Origin: Kiloniella laminariae
GTDB lineage: Bacteria > Pseudomonadota > Alphaproteobacteria > Kiloniellales > Kiloniellaceae
Assembly: GCF_027214005.1 (NCBI RefSeq)
Contig: NZ_JAPWGY010000013.1
Location: 1 to 46,164 of the forward strand
DNA: 46,164 nt
Direction: 5' to 3'
The notes beneath the pieces were generated by a model. The model saw nothing but the letters and a program-made list of their open reading frames with translations. It was not told the DNA's origin and made no database searches. The stretch's first letter is position 1, and every line of letters starts with the position of its first letter. The position numbers were made by a program, and so were the translations under genes. Shown here piece after piece: positions 7,147 through 16,144 of this stretch.

Positions 7147-8580
7147 TTAGAACCAGGGCAGAGAATAGGTTTTGACGTTGGTGTAGCTCTTCATCGCTTC
7201 GATCACGCCTTCCTTGTAACCCAGGCCGGAATCCTTGATGCCGCCAAAAGGAGACATCTCGATCCGGTAGCCCGGTACTTCCCAGACGTTCACAGTGCCG
7301 GTTTTCAATTCCTTGATGAAGCGTTTGATGTAATTGAAGTTATCGGTACAAACACCGGAAGACAGACCAAAAGCTGTGGAGTTGGACACGCGGATCGCAT
7401 CGTCGATATCCTTGACCCGGATAATCGGAATGGCCGGACCAAAGGTCTCCTCGCGTACCAGTTCACAATCAAACGGCACATGATCGACCACCGTCGGGGG
7501 ATAGAGTGCGCCTTCACGGTTGTTGCCATAAAGCAGCTTGGCACCCACCGAAACCGCATCATTGACCCGACGTTCAAACAGCATAGCTGATTGCTCGTCA
7601 ATCACGGTGCCCAGATCCGTTTCCGGGTCCATCGGATCACCGTATTTCAGCTTCTTGGCTTTTTCCAGGATCAGTCGGGAAAGTTCATCAGCAACTTCCT
7701 CGACCACCAGAATGCGTTTGACCGCTGTACAACGCTGACCAGAGTTTTTGGTCGCGCCCGAAACCGCCAGCTCAGCCGCTTTGTCGAGGTCGGCATCTTC
7801 CATAACGATCAGCGGTGCATTGCCGCCAAGCTCGAGCACTGTGCGGCGATAACCGGCATTTTCAGCGATATACTTGCCAACCGGCACACCACCGGTAAAG
7901 GTCACCAGTTCAATATTCTTGTTGGTGATGAACTCGTTGCCGAGATCTTCCGGCAGGCCGGTGATGATCGACAGCATTTCTTTCGGCAGACCTGCTTCAT
8001 AGATGATATCAGCCAGCAACAGGGCAGTCAGCGGGGTTTTTTCCGTTGGCTTGCAGACGATACAGTTGTTGGTCGCAATTGCCGGGGCGATCTTGTGCGA
8101 GATCATGTTTAGCGGGTGGTTGAAGGGGGTGATTGCTGAAATAGCTTTCAGCGGCTCACGTTCGGTATAGATCTTGCGCTGTTTGCCGTGCGGCGTGATA
8201 TCACAGGAATAGATCTCGCCATCGTCCAGAATGCACATCTGCCCGGCAAGGGTATAGACGTCATAGGCCCGGCCGACTTCATAGAGAGAGTCTTTTTTGC
8301 ACAGACCTGATTCAGCTGTAATCACGTCAGAAATTTCTTCCTTGCGACGGACCAGGGTCTCGGCAATACGGAACAGGATCTGCTGACGGTCATAACGGGT
8401 CAGGGACGAGTTATAATTTGCCGCAATCTCGAAAGCTTCGCGGGCATGCGCCGCCGTACCACGAGGCACTGAACCAACAACTTCATTGGTATAGGGGTAA
8501 TGCACATCAATGCGGCCTTCGGTATCCACCAGTTTACCGGCAATGCGCATCGGCTCGTGGCCAATAATCTTTACAGACAT
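7147..8580 (-). CDS. phnY: Phosphonoacetaldehyde dehydrogenase
   Basis: An NAD+-dependent aldehyde dehydrogenase of 477 residues that oxidises phosphonoacetaldehyde to phosphonoacetate in the cytoplasm. The ALDH catalytic set is complete: the oxyanion asparagine Asn154 in TPFNHPLN, general base Glu250 in LELGGNAP and nucleophile Cys284 in [11 protein letters not shown]. The nucleotide-binding [10 protein letters not shown] (226-235) and the C-terminal [11 protein letters not shown] follow. I place the start at the ATG at 8580, which has GAGGAT eight bases upstream and lies 23 nt after the phnA stop; the longer frame to 8628 would overlap phnA. The assignment to PhnY rather than a generic ALDH rests on the phnW-phnA neighbours. 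The operon ends in the terminator at 6966-6993. Confidence 0.93.
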
Positions 8581-8603
8581 AGCTATATCCTCAATTCTAC
8601 CGG

Positions 8604-9854
8604 TTATTCGGCGTAGTTTACGGAGCAATAGAAGGCATCAAAGTTCCGCAGGCGCATGTCAGACGGGATCCCCGGCATCGGACGGTTGCTGATGAACGGT
8701 ACTTTCTGTTCTGTCAGCCCGCCGTGGGTGCGCAAGGGACGGTCCAGCGCCGAAAGATCGTGCCGGGATTCCGATGTTCCGATCGCCAGATGACGTTCAG
8801 AGATGACAATGATGTCACCCATACGGTCTTCCGGTAGCTCCAGCATGGCACAACCGGCAGGTCCAGAAATCGCCAGCTCAACACCATCAACCGCGGAAAG
8901 ACGCTTTACTGCTTCGTCAGTTGAAACGCCCTTGGGCAGATAGGCCGTAGCAAAAGACCCCAGCGCACCATGGTGCACCACATAGGGATCTGTGATCGGC
9001 AGGATAACCCGTGCCTGGTCCTTGCCGTACCACTCATCCAGCAGATCCTGCAGATAAAGCACATTCGGCTTGCCATCAGCGGCGTGTTTCGGGTTCATCC
9101 CGTGATCCGCTGTCAGGGTCAGAACCGCCCCAAGGGCATCCAGCTGGGCCCAGTAGCCATCCATCATTTCATAGAAAGCCAGCGCGCCTTCTTCATCAGG
9201 GGCATACTTGTGCTGGATGAAGTCGGTGGTGGAGAGATACATGATTTCCGGACGGACTGTTTCCAGCAGCTTCACACCAGCGGCAAAGACAAATTCGGAC
9301 AGATCAGAACTGTATACGGACGGAACGGGCTTGCCGACAAATTCGTTGACGTTTTCAATACCATTGTCCGCGATTGTGGCTGCATCAGATTTTTCAGCAG
9401 AGAAACAAATCGCATTGCCCTTGCTGTAATCCAGACCATGGCCCAGCAGCAGGCGAAGTTTGTCCTTGGCAGTCACTACGGCAACTTTGGCCCCCGCATC
9501 CTGATAGGAAGAGAAAATGGTTTTGGCGCGATAATAGGTCGGCGCGTTCATCAGTTCTTCTTCACCAGTCTCCTGATTATAGAAGTAGTTGCCGCAGATC
9601 CCGTGATAACGTGGCGGGCAACCGCTGACGATAGAGAGGTTGTTCGGGTTGGTGAAACTTGGCACCACGGATTCAGCAATCCGGTTGGTGTTCACGCCGC
9701 TGTCGATCAGCTTTTTCAGCCAGGGCATCCGCCCGGCTTTCATGGCCACTTCCATATAATCCGGTTCGCTGCCATCGACACAGACAACCACGATGGGGCG
9801 TTCGGAACGTTTGTAAAGGCGGCCATTGGCCTGAACGAGTTTACCAGCACTCAT
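8604..9854 (-). CDS. phnA: Phosphonoacetate hydrolase
   Basis: A 416-residue member of the alkaline phosphatase superfamily that cleaves phosphonoacetate to acetate and phosphate using two zinc ions. Visible metal and catalytic features in order are Asp27 in VCVDGSEPD, the Thr68 nucleophile in [18 protein letters not shown] (Asp and His ligands), [10 protein letters not shown] (Asp-His pair) and the C-terminal RTHGGLTEQ histidine. These match the known PhnA ligand set. It sits between phnW and phnY, the order expected for the complete AEP to acetate route. A GGGAGATATCC ribosome-binding site precedes the ATG at 9854. It is the step that releases phosphate, and it distinguishes this route from the phnW-phnX (phosphonatase) route, of which no gene is present. 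Confidence 0.95.
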
Positions 9855-9881
9855 AGGATATCTCCCGATTTTAGTGTCTTT

Positions 9882-9919
9882 ACCGCAGGCCTGTTTCTTT
9901 TCAAAAACAGGCCTGCGGT
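9882..9919 (-). repeat. Intercistronic hairpin between phnW and phnA
   Basis: ACCGCAGGCCTGTTT (9882-9896) and its perfect reverse complement (9905-9919) form a 15-bp stem with an 8-nt loop in the 78-nt gap between phnW and phnA. There is no T-run on the minus strand after it, so it is more likely an mRNA-stabilising or processing element, or a weak attenuator, than a strong terminator. Confidence 0.8.
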
Positions 9920-9932
9920 AGGAATGTAATTT

Positions 9933-11090
9933 TTAGGCAGCAGCGGCAGGTGCGCAGTTTTTCACGCCCATTTCCACGATGGTTTCCTTGATCACAGCCA
10001 AGGCTGCGCGGATGTCATCATTGCCCATGCGACCGATACAGCCAACCCGGAATGAATCTGCCACTGTCAGCTTGCCCGGATAGATCAGATACCCGCGCTC
10101 GGCCAGACGGTCATAGAAGTTCTGGAAATCAAACTTCGGATCGGTCGGCTTGTGGAACGTCACGATAATCGGGGCCTGCAGATGATCGGGCAGCAGGGTT
10201 TCAAAACCCATGGCCCGCATGCCATCCACCAGGGTTTTGCAGTTGGACGCATAACGACCACCGCGGCCTTCGACACCACCTTCTTCCTCGAACTCGCGGA
10301 TCGCCTGTTCAAAAGCAACGATACAGTGTGTCGGCGGGGTAAAGCGCCACTGATCGGTCTTTTCCATCTGCACCCACTGGTCATAAAGATCCAGCACCAG
10401 CGAGGGCGCATTGCCTTCGGTCTTTTCCAGCACCGAACGACGGACCAGAACAAACCCCATCCCCGGCACACCTTCGAGGCACTTGTTCGAAGATGCCGCC
10501 ACAGCATCAAAGCGGATCTTGCTGGCATCAACCGGCAGCGCGGCAAAGGCGGACATGGAATCAATCAGCAGCGAACGGCCGTGCTTTTCGACCATATGGG
10601 CCACTTCGGCAATCGGGTTCAATACACCCGATGTTGTCTCGCAATGGATTACCGCAACGTGGGTAATCGCCTTGTCAGCGCCCAGACGGGCATCGAGATC
10701 GGCAACACTGACCGGCTGATCTTCCGGGTACTCAAGAATTTCGTAGGCCCGTTTGTAATAATCACAGATCTTGGCCATGCGGCGACCATAGGCACCATTG
10801 ACCAGTATCAAAAGCTTGCCGTCCCGCGGCAACAGTGTCCCCAGCATCGCTTCTACAGAAAAGGTTCCGCTGCCCTGAAGTGGCACACAGACGAAATCAT
10901 CCTTGCCATTGATAATGTTGAGCAGGCTGCTGCGCACACGGCGGTTGATCTCGATGAACTTTTTGTCCCGTGACCCATAGTCATGCAGCATGGCCTGTTT
11001 GGTTGTCACAGAAGTTGTCAGCGGGCCTGGTGTCAGCAACCAGGGATCACCAGATGGGGAAACAGCAACGGCAGATGTCTTGTCAGACAT
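9933..11090 (-). CDS. phnW: 2-aminoethylphosphonate:pyruvate aminotransferase
   Basis: A class V PLP aminotransferase of 385 residues that converts AEP plus pyruvate to phosphonoacetaldehyde plus alanine. The N terminus carries the family LLTPGPLTTS (18-27), followed by LQGSGTFSVEAML (71-83), the PLP-pyridine aspartate Asp177 in LLIDSMSAF and the Schiff-base Lys203 in SSNKCLEGVPGMGF. FRVGCIGRM follows near the C terminus. Length and motifs fit PhnW well. It is the first gene of phnW-phnA-phnY and is divergent from an AEP-type LysR regulator 196 nt away. The C-terminal PAAAA tail is an odd low-complexity extension. The ATG at 11090 has GGATCTCC... ribosome-binding-like purines (AAGGAGATCC on the message not exact). 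Confidence 0.96.
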   Translation of the reverse strand: MSDKTSAVAVSPSGDPWLLTPGPLTTSVTTKQAMLHDYGSRDKKFIEINRRVRSSLLNIINGKDDFVCVPLQGSGTFSVEAMLGTLLPRDGKLLILVNGAYGRRMAKICDYYKRAYEILEYPEDQPVSVADLDARLGADKAITHVAVIHCETTSGVLNPIAEVAHMVEKHGRSLLIDSMSAFAALPVDASKIRFDAVAASSNKCLEGVPGMGFVLVRRSVLEKTEGNAPSLVLDLYDQWVQMEKTDQWRFTPPTHCIVAFEQAIREFEEEGGVEGRGGRYASNCKTLVDGMRAMGFETLLPDHLQAPIIVTFHKPTDPKFDFQNFYDRLAERGYLIYPGKLTVADSFRVGCIGRMGNDDIRAALAVIKETIVEMGVKNCAPAAAA

Positions 11091-11286: not shown

Positions 11287-12168
11287 ATGAATCATGCGCA
11301 GATCAGAGCGTTCCACGCCGTGGCCAGTGAAGGCAGCTTTACCAAGGCTGCCGACGTCCTCAATGTAACCCAGCCGACCCTGTCTGGTCAGGTCGCTGCC
11401 CTGGAAGAAACCTATGGGGTAAAACTCTTCGAACGCCGGGGACGTGGAATCGAGATCACCGAGATCGGGCGCCGCCTGCATGCCGTCACCCTGCGCCAGT
11501 TTGCAGTAGAACTCGAAGCCGAACAGGTGCTGCTTTCCGCCCGGGGCCTGATGTCGGGCCAGCTCCGCGTCGCCGCCGATGCCCCCTATCATGTGGTACC
11601 ACTGCTCGCGACCTTCAGCAGACTTTATCCGGGGATCAATTTCTCCATGAGCTTCGGTAACTCGCAACAGGTGTTACAGGGTCTGTTCGAGCGTAAATCC
11701 GATGTGGTTATCATGCCCAACATTCAAGAAGATCGCCGCCTGCATGCCGCCCCGCTCAAACGGGAACCCCTGATCGTCTTTGTCGATCGCAACCATCCCT
11801 GGGCTGCCCGGCGCAGCATCAGCATTACCGAACTGGTACATCATCGCATTATCCTGCGTGAAAAAGGTTCCGTCACCCGCAAGATTTTTGAAAGCGCGCT
11901 GGAAAGCGCGGGCGTCAAACTGCTTGAAACTCTTGAAATCGGCAGCCGTGAAGCCGTGCGCGAAGCTGTGGCTTCCGGTCTGGGTATCGGGGTGGTGTTC
12001 GAAAGCGAGTTCGGCAACGACACCCGCCTGCACGGCCTGACCGTCAGGGATGTCCAGCTTGAGGGGCTGGAATATGTCGCCTGTCTGAAAGAGCAAAAAG
12101 ACAGCCCGGTTATCCGTGCTTTTTTTGACCAGATCCAGAGCTCGACAGCATCAGGTTTCGTCAAATAA
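11287..12168 (+). CDS. LysR-family regulator of AEP catabolism
   Basis: A 293-residue LysR-type regulator with the HTH at residues 1-60 (FTKAADVLNVTQPTLSGQVAALE) and an effector-binding domain from about 88 onward. It belongs by sequence feel and by position to the group described as aminoethylphosphonate catabolism-associated LysR regulators, which sit divergently from phnW. Expected role: activation of phnW-phnA-phnY when AEP or phosphonoacetaldehyde is present, independent of phosphate level. No Pho-box-like repeat was seen in this intergenic region, which agrees with phosphate-independent control. Confidence 0.9.
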   Translation: MNHAQIRAFHAVASEGSFTKAADVLNVTQPTLSGQVAALEETYGVKLFERRGRGIEITEIGRRLHAVTLRQFAVELEAEQVLLSARGLMSGQLRVAADAPYHVVPLLATFSRLYPGINFSMSFGNSQQVLQGLFERKSDVVIMPNIQEDRRLHAAPLKREPLIVFVDRNHPWAARRSISITELVHHRIILREKGSVTRKIFESALESAGVKLLETLEIGSREAVREAVASGLGIGVVFESEFGNDTRLHGLTVRDVQLEGLEYVACLKEQKDSPVIRAFFDQIQSSTASGFVK

Positions 12169-12334: not shown

Positions 12335-13960
12335 ATGATCCAATCGCTCCCCCGAACTTTCAGACTATTCCTGCTATGGGGAATCCTCACATTTCTGTTC
12401 GGCCTGTTTACGATCGACCAGCGTCATGACCTCTTGTCTGAACAGCTGGAACAGCAAGCACAAAGTCTGTCACAAGGCCTGTCCCAACGTGCAGACCAGC
12501 ACGATGCTCACCTGACCAATCTCTCTGCCCTGGTCAACACCGGAGAAATCCCGCCACTGGCACAGATGGTTGAAGTTGCCCAGACAGTTCAAAAATTCTA
12601 TCCCCGCATTCTGGCCATTGATGTTATCTCACTCAATCCGGATTCACCGCTCTGGATCATGACCACCCGCCCCCGGGATCAGACCACCGAACTGTTGGCC
12701 TTGACCATTAAAGAAGCAGCCGTGACATCCACTGGAGCACTGGCTCTTTTGCCCCTTGGAGATTTGACCGGTCTGCCTCTTTCCGAAACCCGCGGGCAAT
12801 ACCTGCTGGTCAAACGGTCCCCGAACAGCCCCGCTGCACGCTATGGCCTGGCCCTCACCATCGACAGTGCACAACTGGTAACGGCAGAAACTTCTTTCTC
12901 AAACGATGTTGACCTGTGGCTGGATCTCCCCTCGGGAGAGAATATTCTCTCCCCGGCCGGGAACGCCTCATCTGTATCGAACAGCTCTTTGACGGAAAGC
13001 TGGATGACCCGACTGATCTCACCAGATGCCCTGACCTTTGAACAGCAGCTTGGAAGCCAGAGCCAGCCCCTCACCTTGCGGGTCAAACAATCCCCGCCGT
13101 TGAACAGCCTGCTGCCTTTAACGGTTATTCTTGGGTTCTCGGCCCTGCTAGCCCTTGCCCTGTTGGGAGGGAACACTCTGTTAAAACAGAGATCTGCAAC
13201 CAGAGACGCTCAGGCAAAGGCCCTCTTGGGACGACAGGAAGCCCGGATTGCACAGGCCTCACGGATCAATTCTCTGGGGGAAATGGCATCAGGCATTGCC
13301 CATGAACTGAATCAGCCGCTGACAGCAATTCTAAGCCAGAGCCAGGCGAGTCTGCACCTGCTCAAAAGCACCCCCCTCAAACGGGATGCATTGATCAGTG
13401 CATTGGAAGCAAACGTGCTGCAATCCAAACGGGCCGGTGAGATTTTGACCCGACTGCGCAACTGGACAAAACGTGATGCTACCGTCGTGCAGCTTATTGA
13501 TCTGAACCAGATCATCCGCGGGGTTGTTGATTTAATGAACACAGATCTGAAAGAACGCAATATTGTTTTACAGCTGAAACTCGACAATCAACCATTGCTC
13601 AGTAAATGCGACCCCGTCCAGATCGAACAGGTTATCTTTAATCTGGTACGTAACAGCGCTGAAGCTATCGAAGACCAGAAGGATGATATTAGGCGTATTG
13701 CCGTGGAAAGTAGAGCACAAGGCAACCAGAATATTATTCAGATCAGCGACAGTGGCTGTGGCATCCCAAGCGAAACACTTCCGCGGCTGTTTGAGCCCTT
13801 TCATTCAACCAAGGAAAACGGCATGGGTCTTGGCCTTTCACTTTCTGAAAGTATCCTTCAACGTTTCGACGGCACCCTGACACTGATCAATCAATCCGGC
13901 GGCGGTGCCTGCGCAACAGTCTCGCTACCTTCGGCATCGCCAGCAGCTGGCAAAAAATAA
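12335..13960 (+). CDS. Membrane-bound sensor histidine kinase with periplasmic domain
   Basis: A 541-residue kinase. A transmembrane helix at about 10-27 and a second at about 257-283 enclose a 225-residue periplasmic sensor domain of unknown fold. A short coiled linker leads to the HisKA dimerisation domain with phospho-acceptor His323 in EMASGIAHELNQPLTA, the FixL/DctB/NtrB-type H-box. The ATPase domain has an N-box (QVIFNLVRNSAEA), a G1 box (DSGCGIP), an F-box (LFEPFHSTK) and a G2 box (GMGLGLS). It is followed after 13 nt by a FixJ-type response regulator and then by a secreted HbpS/GlcG-like protein, so the periplasmic domain may sense that protein or its ligand. The ligand cannot be read from sequence. 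Confidence 0.93.
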   Translation: MIQSLPRTFRLFLLWGILTFLFGLFTIDQRHDLLSEQLEQQAQSLSQGLSQRADQHDAHLTNLSALVNTGEIPPLAQMVEVAQTVQKFYPRILAIDVISLNPDSPLWIMTTRPRDQTTELLALTIKEAAVTSTGALALLPLGDLTGLPLSETRGQYLLVKRSPNSPAARYGLALTIDSAQLVTAETSFSNDVDLWLDLPSGENILSPAGNASSVSNSSLTESWMTRLISPDALTFEQQLGSQSQPLTLRVKQSPPLNSLLPLTVILGFSALLALALLGGNTLLKQRSATRDAQAKALLGRQEARIAQASRINSLGEMASGIAHELNQPLTAILSQSQASLHLLKSTPLKRDALISALEANVLQSKRAGEILTRLRNWTKRDATVVQLIDLNQIIRGVVDLMNTDLKERNIVLQLKLDNQPLLSKCDPVQIEQVIFNLVRNSAEAIEDQKDDIRRIAVESRAQGNQNIIQISDSGCGIPSETLPRLFEPFHSTKENGMGLGLSLSESILQRFDGTLTLINQSGGGACATVSLPSASPAAGKK

Positions 13961-13973
13961 CGGACCCGACAGA

Positions 13974-14588
13974 ATGTCTGAAAAGATGATTTATCTCGTT
14001 GATGATGACGCAGCAGTACGCGAAGGACTGACACTGCTGCTCGAAACCATTGGCATGAAGGTACAGGGGTTTCCCGATCCGTTTTCCTTTCTCGACAAAC
14101 TCGCCGCTCTGGCTCCCGGCTGTATCATTCTCGATATTCGGATGCCCGGGCTCTCCGGCCTCAAGCTTCAGGAAAGGCTGGTTGCAGCCAACAGTGACTG
14201 GCCCATTATCGTTATCAGTGGTCATGGGGATATCAATGCCTGTCGGCAGGCTTTTCGTAATGGCGCTGTTGATTTTCTGAGTAAGCCGATTGACGAGCAG
14301 GACCTGATCGATGCAATCCAGAAGGCGCATGCGCAGCTGGACAGGCATGAAAACCAGTTGGCCGAAATCACCGAAAACCGGGATCTTCTTGATCAGCTAT
14401 CCAGCCGGGAACGGGAAATTCTCAACATGATAACCCAGGGCTGGACAACCAAGGAGATTGCCTTGTCTCTGGCCCTATCGCCGCGCACGGTTGAAAGCCA
14501 TCGTAAAAACATCGCCACAAAGCTTAAAACCACATCGGTGGCTGAAATGACCCGCATTGTCCTCGAAAGTGCCCCGGCAACCTCATAG
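13974..14588 (+). CDS. FixJ/NarL-type response regulator
   Basis: A 204-residue two-domain regulator. The receiver domain (1-120) has the acidic pair in LVDDD, phospho-acceptor Asp54 in IILDIRMPG and the conserved lysine in FLSKPID. The C-terminal LuxR-type HTH (about 140-200) reads LSSREREIL...TTKEIALSLALSPRTVESHRKNI. The start at 13974 (MSEKMIYLV) is preferred over a longer frame that would overlap the kinase gene. It is the cognate partner of the kinase 13 nt upstream. It probably controls the secreted HbpS-like gene downstream, where a palindrome and three GCTAC repeats lie (14610-14684). Confidence 0.93.
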   Translation: MSEKMIYLVDDDAAVREGLTLLLETIGMKVQGFPDPFSFLDKLAALAPGCIILDIRMPGLSGLKLQERLVAANSDWPIIVISGHGDINACRQAFRNGAVDFLSKPIDEQDLIDAIQKAHAQLDRHENQLAEITENRDLLDQLSSREREILNMITQGWTTKEIALSLALSPRTVESHRKNIATKLKTTSVAEMTRIVLESAPATS

Positions 14589-14609
14589 AACTTCAAAACG
14601 CTCCTTTCT

Positions 14610-14627
14610 CTCCGTAGTGCTACGGAG
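14610..14627. promoter_or_regulatory. CTCCGTAG-TG-CTACGGAG palindrome upstream of the HbpS-like gene
   Basis: A perfect 8-bp inverted repeat with a 2-nt centre lies 22 nt after the response-regulator stop and 93 nt before the HbpS-like start. GCTAC recurs at 14619, 14641 and 14670, the first two followed by a similar GAGTATG/GAATATG tail. The cluster looks like an operator for the LuxR-type regulator just upstream. The palindrome has no T-tract, so it is not a classical terminator. Confidence 0.5.
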
Positions 14628-14719
14628 TATGCCCCCGGACGCTACGAATATGGCTGCTGCTCCCGGGATGCTACAACAACTCCAATATAAACCCCGCGTT
14701 CCCTATTGGAGTATGTCCT

Positions 14720-15241
14720 ATGAGCAACACGTCTATCCTTAAATTCTCCCGTAATTTTGGTGCAACCGCGTTGGCTTCCATGATTTTTCTGTCAGGTTTG
14801 TCTTCGGTACAGGCTGCAGAACTGCCCAGTTCTCCCTACCTGCCTCTGGAACTGGCCCAAAAGGCCGCGGATGCAGCCATGGCCCAGTGTATCGCTGATG
14901 GTTTCAATGTTTCGGTCGCCGTAGTGGAGCGTTCTGGCGCAACCAAAGTCCTGATCAAGGGGGATAATTCCGGCCCGCACACCGTCGGCAGCAGTACAGG
15001 TAAAGCTTTCACCGCCGCCAGCATGGGACGCAACACCCTCGATCTGGCCAACTTCCTTAAAGAACACCGCGAGCTGGATGGTCTTCGGGACATGGATCCC
15101 CGGATGGTGATCCTCGGAGGTGGCTTGCCGATCAAGATCAATGGCGTTCTGGTCGGCGGTATCGGTGTGGGCGGTGCCCCAGGTGGTGACAAAGACCAGG
15201 TCTGTGCAAAGGCTGGCCTCGACAGTATTGGCGCTGAATAA
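14720..15241 (+). CDS. Secreted GlcG/HbpS-family (DUF336) heme-binding-like protein
   Basis: A 173-residue exported protein with a signal peptide (hydrophobic 15-28, cleavage after VQA, about residue 32) and a single GlcG/HbpS domain. Family marks are LELAQKAADAAMAQC (38-52), VSVAVVERSGA, the STGKAFTAAS motif and the C-terminal GGLPIKINGVLVGGIGVGGAPG with final D-VCAKAGLD. Members bind heme or small cofactors and form octamers; Streptomyces HbpS is a secreted accessory sensor of a two-component system. Here the gene directly follows a kinase-regulator pair, which suggests the same kind of partnership. GGAG precedes the ATG, and a terminator follows at 15277-15309. Confidence 0.88.
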   Translation: MSNTSILKFSRNFGATALASMIFLSGLSSVQAAELPSSPYLPLELAQKAADAAMAQCIADGFNVSVAVVERSGATKVLIKGDNSGPHTVGSSTGKAFTAASMGRNTLDLANFLKEHRELDGLRDMDPRMVILGGGLPIKINGVLVGGIGVGGAPGGDKDQVCAKAGLDSIGAE

Positions 15242-15276: not shown

Positions 15277-15309
15277 TTGGGGAGGCCAAAGTGCCTCCCC
15301 AATCCTTTT
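15277..15309 (+). terminator. Terminator after the HbpS-like gene
   Basis: TTGGGGAGGC (15277-15286) pairs with GCCTCCCCAA (15293-15302) around a 6-nt loop and is followed by TCCTTTT. It lies between the convergent HbpS-like and bluB genes. Confidence 0.75.
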
Positions 15310-15316
15310 CAGGCAA

Positions 15317-16144
15317 CTATTCCGCCGATACAAAACCCGGCTGATATCCCTTCGTCTCAAGCTCTTGCTGATCTGATGAAATCCGGGCAAGCAGCTTTTC
15401 ACCAGAGTCATCGCCGGCTGGTCTGCCGTAACGCTCAAAATTGACCAGCTCGGCCAGTGGCAAACGCGGCCTCCAGCCCGCTGATTGCAGTTCCGGTTTA
15501 TCAAAAAAGCGGGAAACATATCCCAGACAGATATAGGCCACCGGCACCACCCCCTCTGGAATTTCCAATAGCTCCTTTAAAGATAGCGGGTCCAGAATAC
15601 TGACCCACCCCAGTCCAAGCCCTTCTGCTCTGGCAGCAAGCCACAGGTTCTGTACAGCACAGACTGAACTGTAGACATCCATTTCCGGAATGTGTGTCCG
15701 CCCCACAACCACCGGTCCGGCCCGCTGTTTGTCACAGGTAATACAAATATTGATCGGGGCTTCAAGAATGCCTTCCAGCTTGAGGTTTCGATAAACTTCG
15801 CGCTTGTCCGCAGGGAACATTTCGGCAGCTTCATTATGCGCTTTGTCAAACAAACGACGGACCTGTTGTTTGGTCTCACCCGACTTGATAACAACAAAAT
15901 TCCAGGGCTGCATAAAACCGACCGAAGGCGCATAATGAGCCGCCATCAACACACGGCTCAGGACAGATTCAGGAATACTGTCCTGCAAGAACTGGCCCCG
16001 CACATCCCGCCGTGAAAAGATTGTCTGATAGAGCGCCCGTCGGTCTCCATCAGAAAAACGGAAGGCCTCGCTGACGGCGCCCTGCCTGTCAGCAGCGGAG
16101 GAATTTATATCTGCTATTACGGTATTATTGTTCAGAATTTCCAT
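15317..16144 (-). CDS. bluB: 5,6-dimethylbenzimidazole synthase
   Basis: A 275-residue member of the nitroreductase-fold family that converts FMNH2 and O2 to dimethylbenzimidazole, the lower ligand of vitamin B12. BluB marks are SRRDVRGQF near residue 45, HYAPSVGFMQPWNF, the VVVGRTHIPEMD block, YSSVCAVQNLWLAARAEGLG and LGWVSILDPLSL. It is slightly longer than typical (about 30 extra N-terminal residues before FSDGDRRALYQ). The ATG at 16144 is preceded by AAAGGGGACTGAT. The long leader contains a cobalamin riboswitch (16199-16397), which independently supports a B12 role. No other cobalamin gene is nearby. Confidence 0.95.
   Translation of the reverse strand: MEILNNNTVIADINSSAADRQGAVSEAFRFSDGDRRALYQTIFSRRDVRGQFLQDSIPESVLSRVLMAAHYAPSVGFMQPWNFVVIKSGETKQQVRRLFDKAHNEAAEMFPADKREVYRNLKLEGILEAPINICITCDKQRAGPVVVGRTHIPEMDVYSSVCAVQNLWLAARAEGLGLGWVSILDPLSLKELLEIPEGVVPVAYICLGYVSRFFDKPELQSAGWRPRLPLAELVNFERYGRPAGDDSGEKLLARISSDQQELETKGYQPGFVSAE

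Follow-up and report, generated by a model that had tools for sequence, protein, structure and literature searches.

SenS, the membrane kinase with which the secreted protein HbpS is encoded in Streptomyces, is a HisKA_3-type kinase, and HbpS, which forms octamers and binds heme, iron or cobalamin, has been reported to act on its autophosphorylation in a manner that depends on ligand or redox state. In actinobacteria the genes are ordered hbpS-senS-senR, and only actinobacterial hbpS-like genes are said to cluster with senS and senR (PMC4991794); HbpS residues and SenR targets are given in PMC3754957, and roles of the HbpS family in PMC8153426 and PMC3184428. Here we analyse a 46,164-nt stretch of DNA from Kiloniella laminariae (contig NZ_JAPWGY010000013.1; the window), in which a membrane histidine kinase, a LuxR-type response regulator (RR) and a secreted HbpS-like protein are encoded one after the other. 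Comparison with related loci establishes, at the level of sequence, a conserved and near-obligate trio with a palindrome before hbpS that is near-unique in the genome. The reading preferred here, with a probability of about two in three, is that of a self-contained module in which kinase and RR would drive the secreted HbpS and the loop would be closed. The cassette has the following parts.

12335-13960, + strand: membrane histidine kinase, 541 amino acids (open reading frame list and Pfam), with a first transmembrane segment at residues ~8-27, a periplasmic region at 28-258, a second transmembrane segment at ~262-282 (transmembrane limits by eye and from the structure model), HisKA at 314-382 and HATPase_c at 426-533
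12416-13108, + strand: periplasmic sensor domain, predicted divergent double-Cache fold without a named sequence family (model and Foldseek)
12497-12517, + strand: codons of Q55-H56-D57-A58-H59-L60-T61, the most conserved periplasmic motif (alignment)
13974-14588, + strand: RR, 204 amino acids, receiver and LuxR-type (GerE) helix-turn-helix, FixJ/TtrR-like; the open reading frame is 13905-14588, and the ATG at 13974 is taken as the start
14611-14626, + strand: palindrome TCCGTAGTGCTACGGA, candidate RR operator, the only exact match in the 4.38-Mb genome
14633-14648, + strand: degenerate second operator copy, 22 bp downstream, with its right half CTACGAA at 14642
14720-15241, + strand: secreted HbpS-like protein (PF03928), 173 amino acids, signal peptide ~1-33 (by eye)

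The kinase is matched in Pfam by HATPase_c (E 7e-22) and HisKA (E 8e-6; 26.2 bits, slightly below the cut-off of 26.9), and the RR by Response_reg and GerE. The nearest named locus, also from Kiloniella laminariae, encodes a kinase whose best segment is 90% identical. Among described two-component pairs, FixL/FixJ and TtrS/TtrR are the most similar, the kinase core scoring best with FixL, AtoS and TtrS and the RR with FixJ and TtrR; however, all of these scores fall under the curated cut-offs (kinase core with NCBIfam FixL, 162.5 bits against 850; RR with NCBIfam FixJ, 194.5 against 255), the sensor domain is a different one, and no heme-PAS domain was found. An earlier sequence-only reading of the window had called the kinase FixL-like, a term that applies as resemblance of the core only, because kinase and RR both score below the NCBIfam equivalog cut-offs. 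That reading had also assigned the kinase to a class other than that of SenS, in agreement with the HisKA domain and the large predicted double-Cache sensor found here. Its description of the locus as a counterpart of SenS-SenR-HbpS holds for gene content and adjacency, a secreted HbpS fold being encoded in both cases with a membrane kinase and a regulator that ends in a helix-turn-helix, but not for the class of the kinase, the gene order (kinase-RR-hbpS here) or the iron and heme residues of Streptomyces HbpS; nor was any unlinked target found here by motif.

Recurrence of the trio

For a first set of loci, contigs were scanned with the kinase alone and the best 80 of 497 loci encoding a relative were taken. 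Kinase, RR and HbpS-like gene occur together in 48 of these 80, distributed over Rhizobiaceae, Methylobacteriaceae, Roseobacteraceae, Paracoccaceae, Acetobacteraceae, Alcaligenaceae and Comamonadaceae, among others. The listed kinase match begins at or before residue 49 in 47 of the 48 trio loci, the remaining one being L079, in which the kinase is broken and pieces of the sensor are present; 31 of the 32 loci without the trio match from residue 277 onward only, and the last, L081 (Leeia), shares the sensor. RR and hbpS thus accompany the sensor in 48 of the 49 sensor-bearing loci, with hbpS inverted ~1 kb past the RR in L064 and L079.

Profile searches with the sensor on evenly drawn genome samples, some genomes belonging to two of them, detected it in 4 of 385 genomes of the class Alphaproteobacteria and 11 of 398 genomes of the phylum (own genome included in each), and in 28 of 247 genomes from the family of a Shinella genome. 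From the sampled genomes a second set of 35 regions was drawn, leaving out genomes of the first set; none of its kinases is more than 90% identical to any in the first set, and no pair among the 35 reaches 95%. RR and hbpS follow the kinase in 34 of the 35 regions. Given 48 of 49 sensor loci in one set and 34 of 35 in the other, the adjacency of kinase and hbpS is not due to chance. The class sample leads to the same genes from the other side: HbpS is encoded in 110 of the 385 genomes, all four sensor genomes have an hbpS gene ~1.4-1.5 kb away, and the four HbpS proteins encoded beside the sensor outscore all others (204-224 bits; the next one reaches 164). The sequence-only reading had placed the three genes in a row, as open reading frames and Pfam agree, and had proposed, as its own check, to look for HbpS-like genes conserved next to kinases of this type and, as its refutation, a lack of recurrence in related genomes; the trio recurs.

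The cassette extends beyond the Pseudomonadota. On a plasmid of Deinococcus sp. NW-56, genes for a kinase, an RR, a heme-binding protein and an ankyrin protein follow one another; the operator is present exactly, as TCCGTAATTCTACGGA, where the RR gene stops, and the sensor is matched less strongly (E 3e-22). These four genes are also found in Variovorax sp. SRS16, with a near match to the operator. On the annotated plasmids examined, the genes of the cassette carry generic names. In two loci, L032:5914-7483 (a Kiloniella laminariae record) and L079:5291-6876 (Rhizobium sp. 2MFCol3.1), the kinase frame is broken, from sequencing error or decay, while the palindrome and the frames of RR and hbpS are present. 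One Rhizobium genome (G444) holds two copies of the cassette, L038 and L093, whose palindromes have diverged differently.

A palindrome before hbpS

The interval between the RR gene and hbpS contains a 16-bp palindrome that, taken across the trio loci, reads TCSGTARNNYTACSGA. It is found exactly, once each, in the window and in 41 of the 48 trio loci; 20 base-shuffled versions of the 597 kb contain none. In 36 of these 41 loci the left half encloses the RR stop codon, TAG or TAA. A matrix trained on 41 of the 49 trio loci finds sites of at least 10 bits before hbpS in 47 of the 49, before the kinase gene in 7 and at 2 places elsewhere in 643 kb. In the second set, which was not used for training, a site of at least 8.5 bits is present in 31 of 35 loci, namely L228 and 30 of the 34 that have hbpS, and a symmetric variant, TAGGTANNNNTACCTA, stands instead in L211, L221, L222 and L223; the variant is also seen in L038, and half of it in L048. 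Symmetry is also kept at positions that vary: among 72 aligned sites, which are those of 83 loci fitting a loose pattern, positions 2 and 13, at each of which the pattern allows C or G, read C-G in 39, G-C in 22 and a non-complementary combination in 11. A weaker copy of the palindrome with the same spacing is discernible 22 bp downstream in the same alignment (columns 22-25 and 34-38).

The palindrome is no coding constraint of the RR end, since it begins 11-23 nt past the RR stop codon in the window, L032, L051, L072 and L073 and, where hbpS is inverted (L079 and L064), stands directly before hbpS. Its place directly 3' of the RR gene would suit a terminator or RNA element, or binding by a different regulator, but any of these is highly improbable: the 2-nt centre is ill-suited to a hairpin, the palindrome travels with the moved hbpS, L228 is the only locus lacking the trio to carry it, and copies are found before some kinase genes, genomes G210 and G277 having sites before hbpS and before the kinase both. 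No site scores above 3.6 bits in the 27 HbpS loci that lack the kinase.

At the scale of whole genomes, 41 exact sites are found in 38 of 45 trio genomes (35 with one and 3 with two), against 18 for a reversed control pattern; G002 and G438, both counted among the 45, point to the same place and probably represent a single genome. Thirty of the exact sites were examined as loci, and 29 of them adjoin RR and hbpS. A search for further targets at one mismatch gave no excess (3 in the window genome against 9 for the control, and 3-10 against 5-26 in five others). We read the palindrome as the probable operator of the RR, with hbpS as its dedicated target and, by the criterion of exact sites, we conclude that this target would be hbpS, sometimes joined by the kinase operon. 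It is very probable that the RR controls hbpS.

Several observations weigh against this reading. L228 has the kinase, the RR and the palindrome without hbpS, and L081 the kinase and the RR without either hbpS or palindrome; L085 and L086 have only weak sites before hbpS, and the exact site is missing from 7 of the 45 trio genomes. Chance sites in 59 loci without the trio reach 9.5 bits, so that a score of 8.5 bits alone is not decisive and position is. The site before the kinase is confined to its seven loci, the window not among them, and a scan of the region for sigma-70 promoters found 0, against 3.1 in shuffles. We infer the assignment of the palindrome to the RR from position and conservation, and weaker sites of another shape could serve further targets. 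L228, in which the palindrome lies at the RR stop codon, and L081 share a neighbouring gene of ~380 codons (similar by eye). A literature text search with the operator half-site matched 408 papers, of which the 15 listed are unrelated by title.

The sensor domain, HbpS and the proposed loop

The periplasmic part of the kinase, to the sequence-only reading a large domain of unknown type, proved to have no credible match in Pfam. No family covers the N-terminal half of the window kinase, the best match of any of 47 sensor members, among the 25 of 32 families listed, is to an unrelated family (E 0.0018), and dCache_1 is matched by a single one of the 47 at E 0.075, which does not amount to membership by sequence; the sensor profile likewise has no match among PDB sequences. 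A structure model of kinase residues 1-300 (mean predicted local distance difference test score 89.7, predicted TM-score 0.81) was matched by Foldseek to KinD, Mlp24, CqsR and other dCache domains, with E-values of 2e-6 to 3e-4 and TM-scores by target of 0.28-0.71 over the 50 rows listed. A divergent double-Cache domain is thus predicted for the sensor, which would share the fold of KinD, Mlp24, CqsR and PctA-C and differs from them in sequence.

Conserved residues of the sensor are Q55-H56-D57-A58-H59, Y89-P90-R91, Y156, K160 and Q244, with Q55, H56 and A58 in 47 of 47 members and H59 in 45. H59 is missing from 5 of 36 kinases (the 35 of the second set and L081), and the divergent L228-L231 and L081 have lost H59 and K160 and, except L230, R91. 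One possibility, tentative at little less than even odds, is that detection of a small ligand falls to the kinase alone, by way of its Cache domain, and that HbpS binds or degrades this ligand without contact with the kinase. It agrees with the predicted fold, which is shared by domains whose structures contain bound small ligands, with the conserved polar or charged residues H56, H59, R91, Y156 and K160, and with hbpS as the dedicated target; against it, H59 and K160 are lost from L228-L231 though L229-L231 keep hbpS. The same loci weaken heme binding through H56-x-x-H59 of the sensor, which had been considered.

The HbpS-like protein, the sole PF03928 match in the genome (E 1e-30), has its best PDB sequence matches in 4bmw and 3fpv, and its monomer model is closest to HbpS 3fpw (TM-score 0.89 by target length). 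It is 43% identical to Streptomyces HbpS across the aligned part, and the family call of the sequence-only reading is borne out by sequence and fold, Streptomyces HbpS being the closest solved structure. Lys83 and Asp143 are present in all 49 trio proteins, D141xxE144 in one, and Tyr77, the E78xxE81 iron site, Lys108 and Thr113 of Streptomyces HbpS in 0 of 49 each; the chemistry of Streptomyces HbpS is therefore not transferable.

These proteins bear on a further possibility, raised by the sequence-only reading, in which HbpS would serve as an accessory sensor in contact with the periplasmic domain of the kinase, autophosphorylation would shift with the ligand or redox state of HbpS, and the operator would do no more than set the amount of sensor. 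We regard it as possible but doubtful. The near-obligate pairing of hbpS with one family of sensor domains favours it, as does the correlation of sensor and HbpS distances (r 0.75 over 46 loci, 0 of 2000 permutations being as high), which shared descent alone could give; in Streptomyces, phosphorylated SenR likewise activates hbpS (PMC3754957). Conversely, Lys108, which the same source describes as needed for heme-based activation of SenS, is missing from every trio protein, and with hbpS as the only detectable target a mere-sensor HbpS would leave the system no output, save at loci with an ankyrin gene.

HbpS-like genes also occur without such a kinase. In related genomes a separate set of secreted HbpS-like genes (L005-L031, with flanks of up to 1.5 kb) adjoins genes for YeeE/YedE-type permease, thioredoxin-like, ArsR and flavocytochrome-like proteins (by eye), which suggests a role in sulfur oxidation clusters. 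The sequence-only reading would have counted regular association with unrelated oxidoreductases against itself, and such association is seen in this set with its sox-type neighbours, by eye. Both groups are secreted and conserve C57, H87, K95, D159 and C162; the sox-type loci differ in having neither kinase nor RR of this kind within the flanks, and no palindrome. The conserved cysteines and His87, tried as a signature of the trio, are also present in 27 of 27 HbpS proteins of this set and were ruled out. In a tree of HbpS, trio and sox-type labels are clustered and neither set is resolved as one clade, the trio forming two clades of 9 and 41 rows that are unresolved at 141 columns, so that its monophyly was not retained.

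Periplasmic proteins that are both target and possible damper of their system are known from CpxP/CpxA-type loops, to which the present case may be analogous, although the fold of HbpS is unrelated. Under the preferred reading of a self-contained module, we infer that the kinase would perceive a periplasmic cue through its unnamed double-Cache domain and phosphorylate the adjacent FixJ/TtrR-like RR, which would bind the palindrome at 14611-14626 and the weaker copy downstream and would switch hbpS on from its own promoter, by activation rather than repression; in some genomes it would also act on the copy before the kinase gene. Exported HbpS would then bind or remove the cue and close the loop, joined in about one third of loci by the ankyrin-repeat protein encoded next. 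The operator evidence makes hbpS in the first place the output of the system, a feedback or sensor role being possible; negative feedback by HbpS is evenly balanced, and that the cue is heme or another tetrapyrrole is rather unlikely.

Neighbouring genes and significance

Around the cassette, the window contains the following.

11287-12168, + strand: phosphonate-type LysR gene, upstream of the kinase
15277-15302, + strand: terminator-like hairpin 3' of hbpS, 10 pairs, 7 G-C (consensus scan)
15317-16144, - strand: BluB (5,6-dimethylbenzimidazole synthase), convergent to hbpS

The consensus scan found 5 terminator-like sites in the region against 4.0 expected. The phosphonate genes phnY, phnA and phnW lie upstream of the cassette at 7147-11090, with the LysR gene in between, and the immediate proximity of PhnW, PhnA, PhnY and a phosphonate-type regulator could mean that the window trio serves them. 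This is extremely improbable, for neighbours elsewhere are diverse and no exact site stands before any phn gene of the window. A common neighbouring pathway was sought as a guide to function and none was found. Among the families listed, the commonest neighbours are ankyrin-repeat proteins (15 of 48 loci), LysR-family regulators (9) and an ABC-ATPase cluster (9). The ankyrin-repeat gene follows hbpS in those 15 loci (one of the 15 Pfam-checked) and in 13 of the 35 second-set regions, but not in the window; its products mostly have a signal-peptide-like start.

In S. reticuli, cpeB adjoins hbpS-senS-senR, an arrangement echoed at L065:3417-5597 (Rhizobium sp. Root1212), where a 727-residue peroxidase-family (PF00141) gene lies directly upstream of kinase-RR-hbpS-ankyrin. 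Copper amine oxidases make hydrogen peroxide, and genes for them adjoin hbpS on the opposite strand in two Nitratireductor genomes (L040:8779-10761 and L067:8769-10751). A Nitroreductase-family gene takes the place of the window BluB in L032. A link to cobalamin is conceivable, because BluB is convergent to the window hbpS and Streptomyces HbpS binds aquo-cobalamin (PMC4991794).

The cassette recurs in distantly related bacteria and seems to be undescribed: no description was found among the full-text matches listed, subscription papers lying mostly outside the search, and one DUF336 lead (PMC12889525) was dropped as its matches were to DUF3365. Across Pseudomonadota, and on one Deinococcota plasmid, hbpS is linked to a kinase-RR pair of a different class, in contrast to the restriction of such clustering to actinobacteria stated in PMC4991794. 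It is unlikely, if conceivable, that the cassette represents a second, independently assembled HbpS-gated system, in which an HbpS oligomer would act on an unrelated double-Cache kinase and the RR would have about one target, hbpS, with or without an ankyrin partner; if so, it would be a minimal periplasmic homeostat for a tetrapyrrole, iron or a reactive metabolite, spread over Pseudomonadota and into Deinococcota and partly plasmid-borne. The sharp candidate operator makes the circuit directly testable, and a two-component system with one secreted protein as its only visible target offers a simple case for the study of feedback and a concrete setting for the widespread, poorly understood HbpS/DUF336 family.

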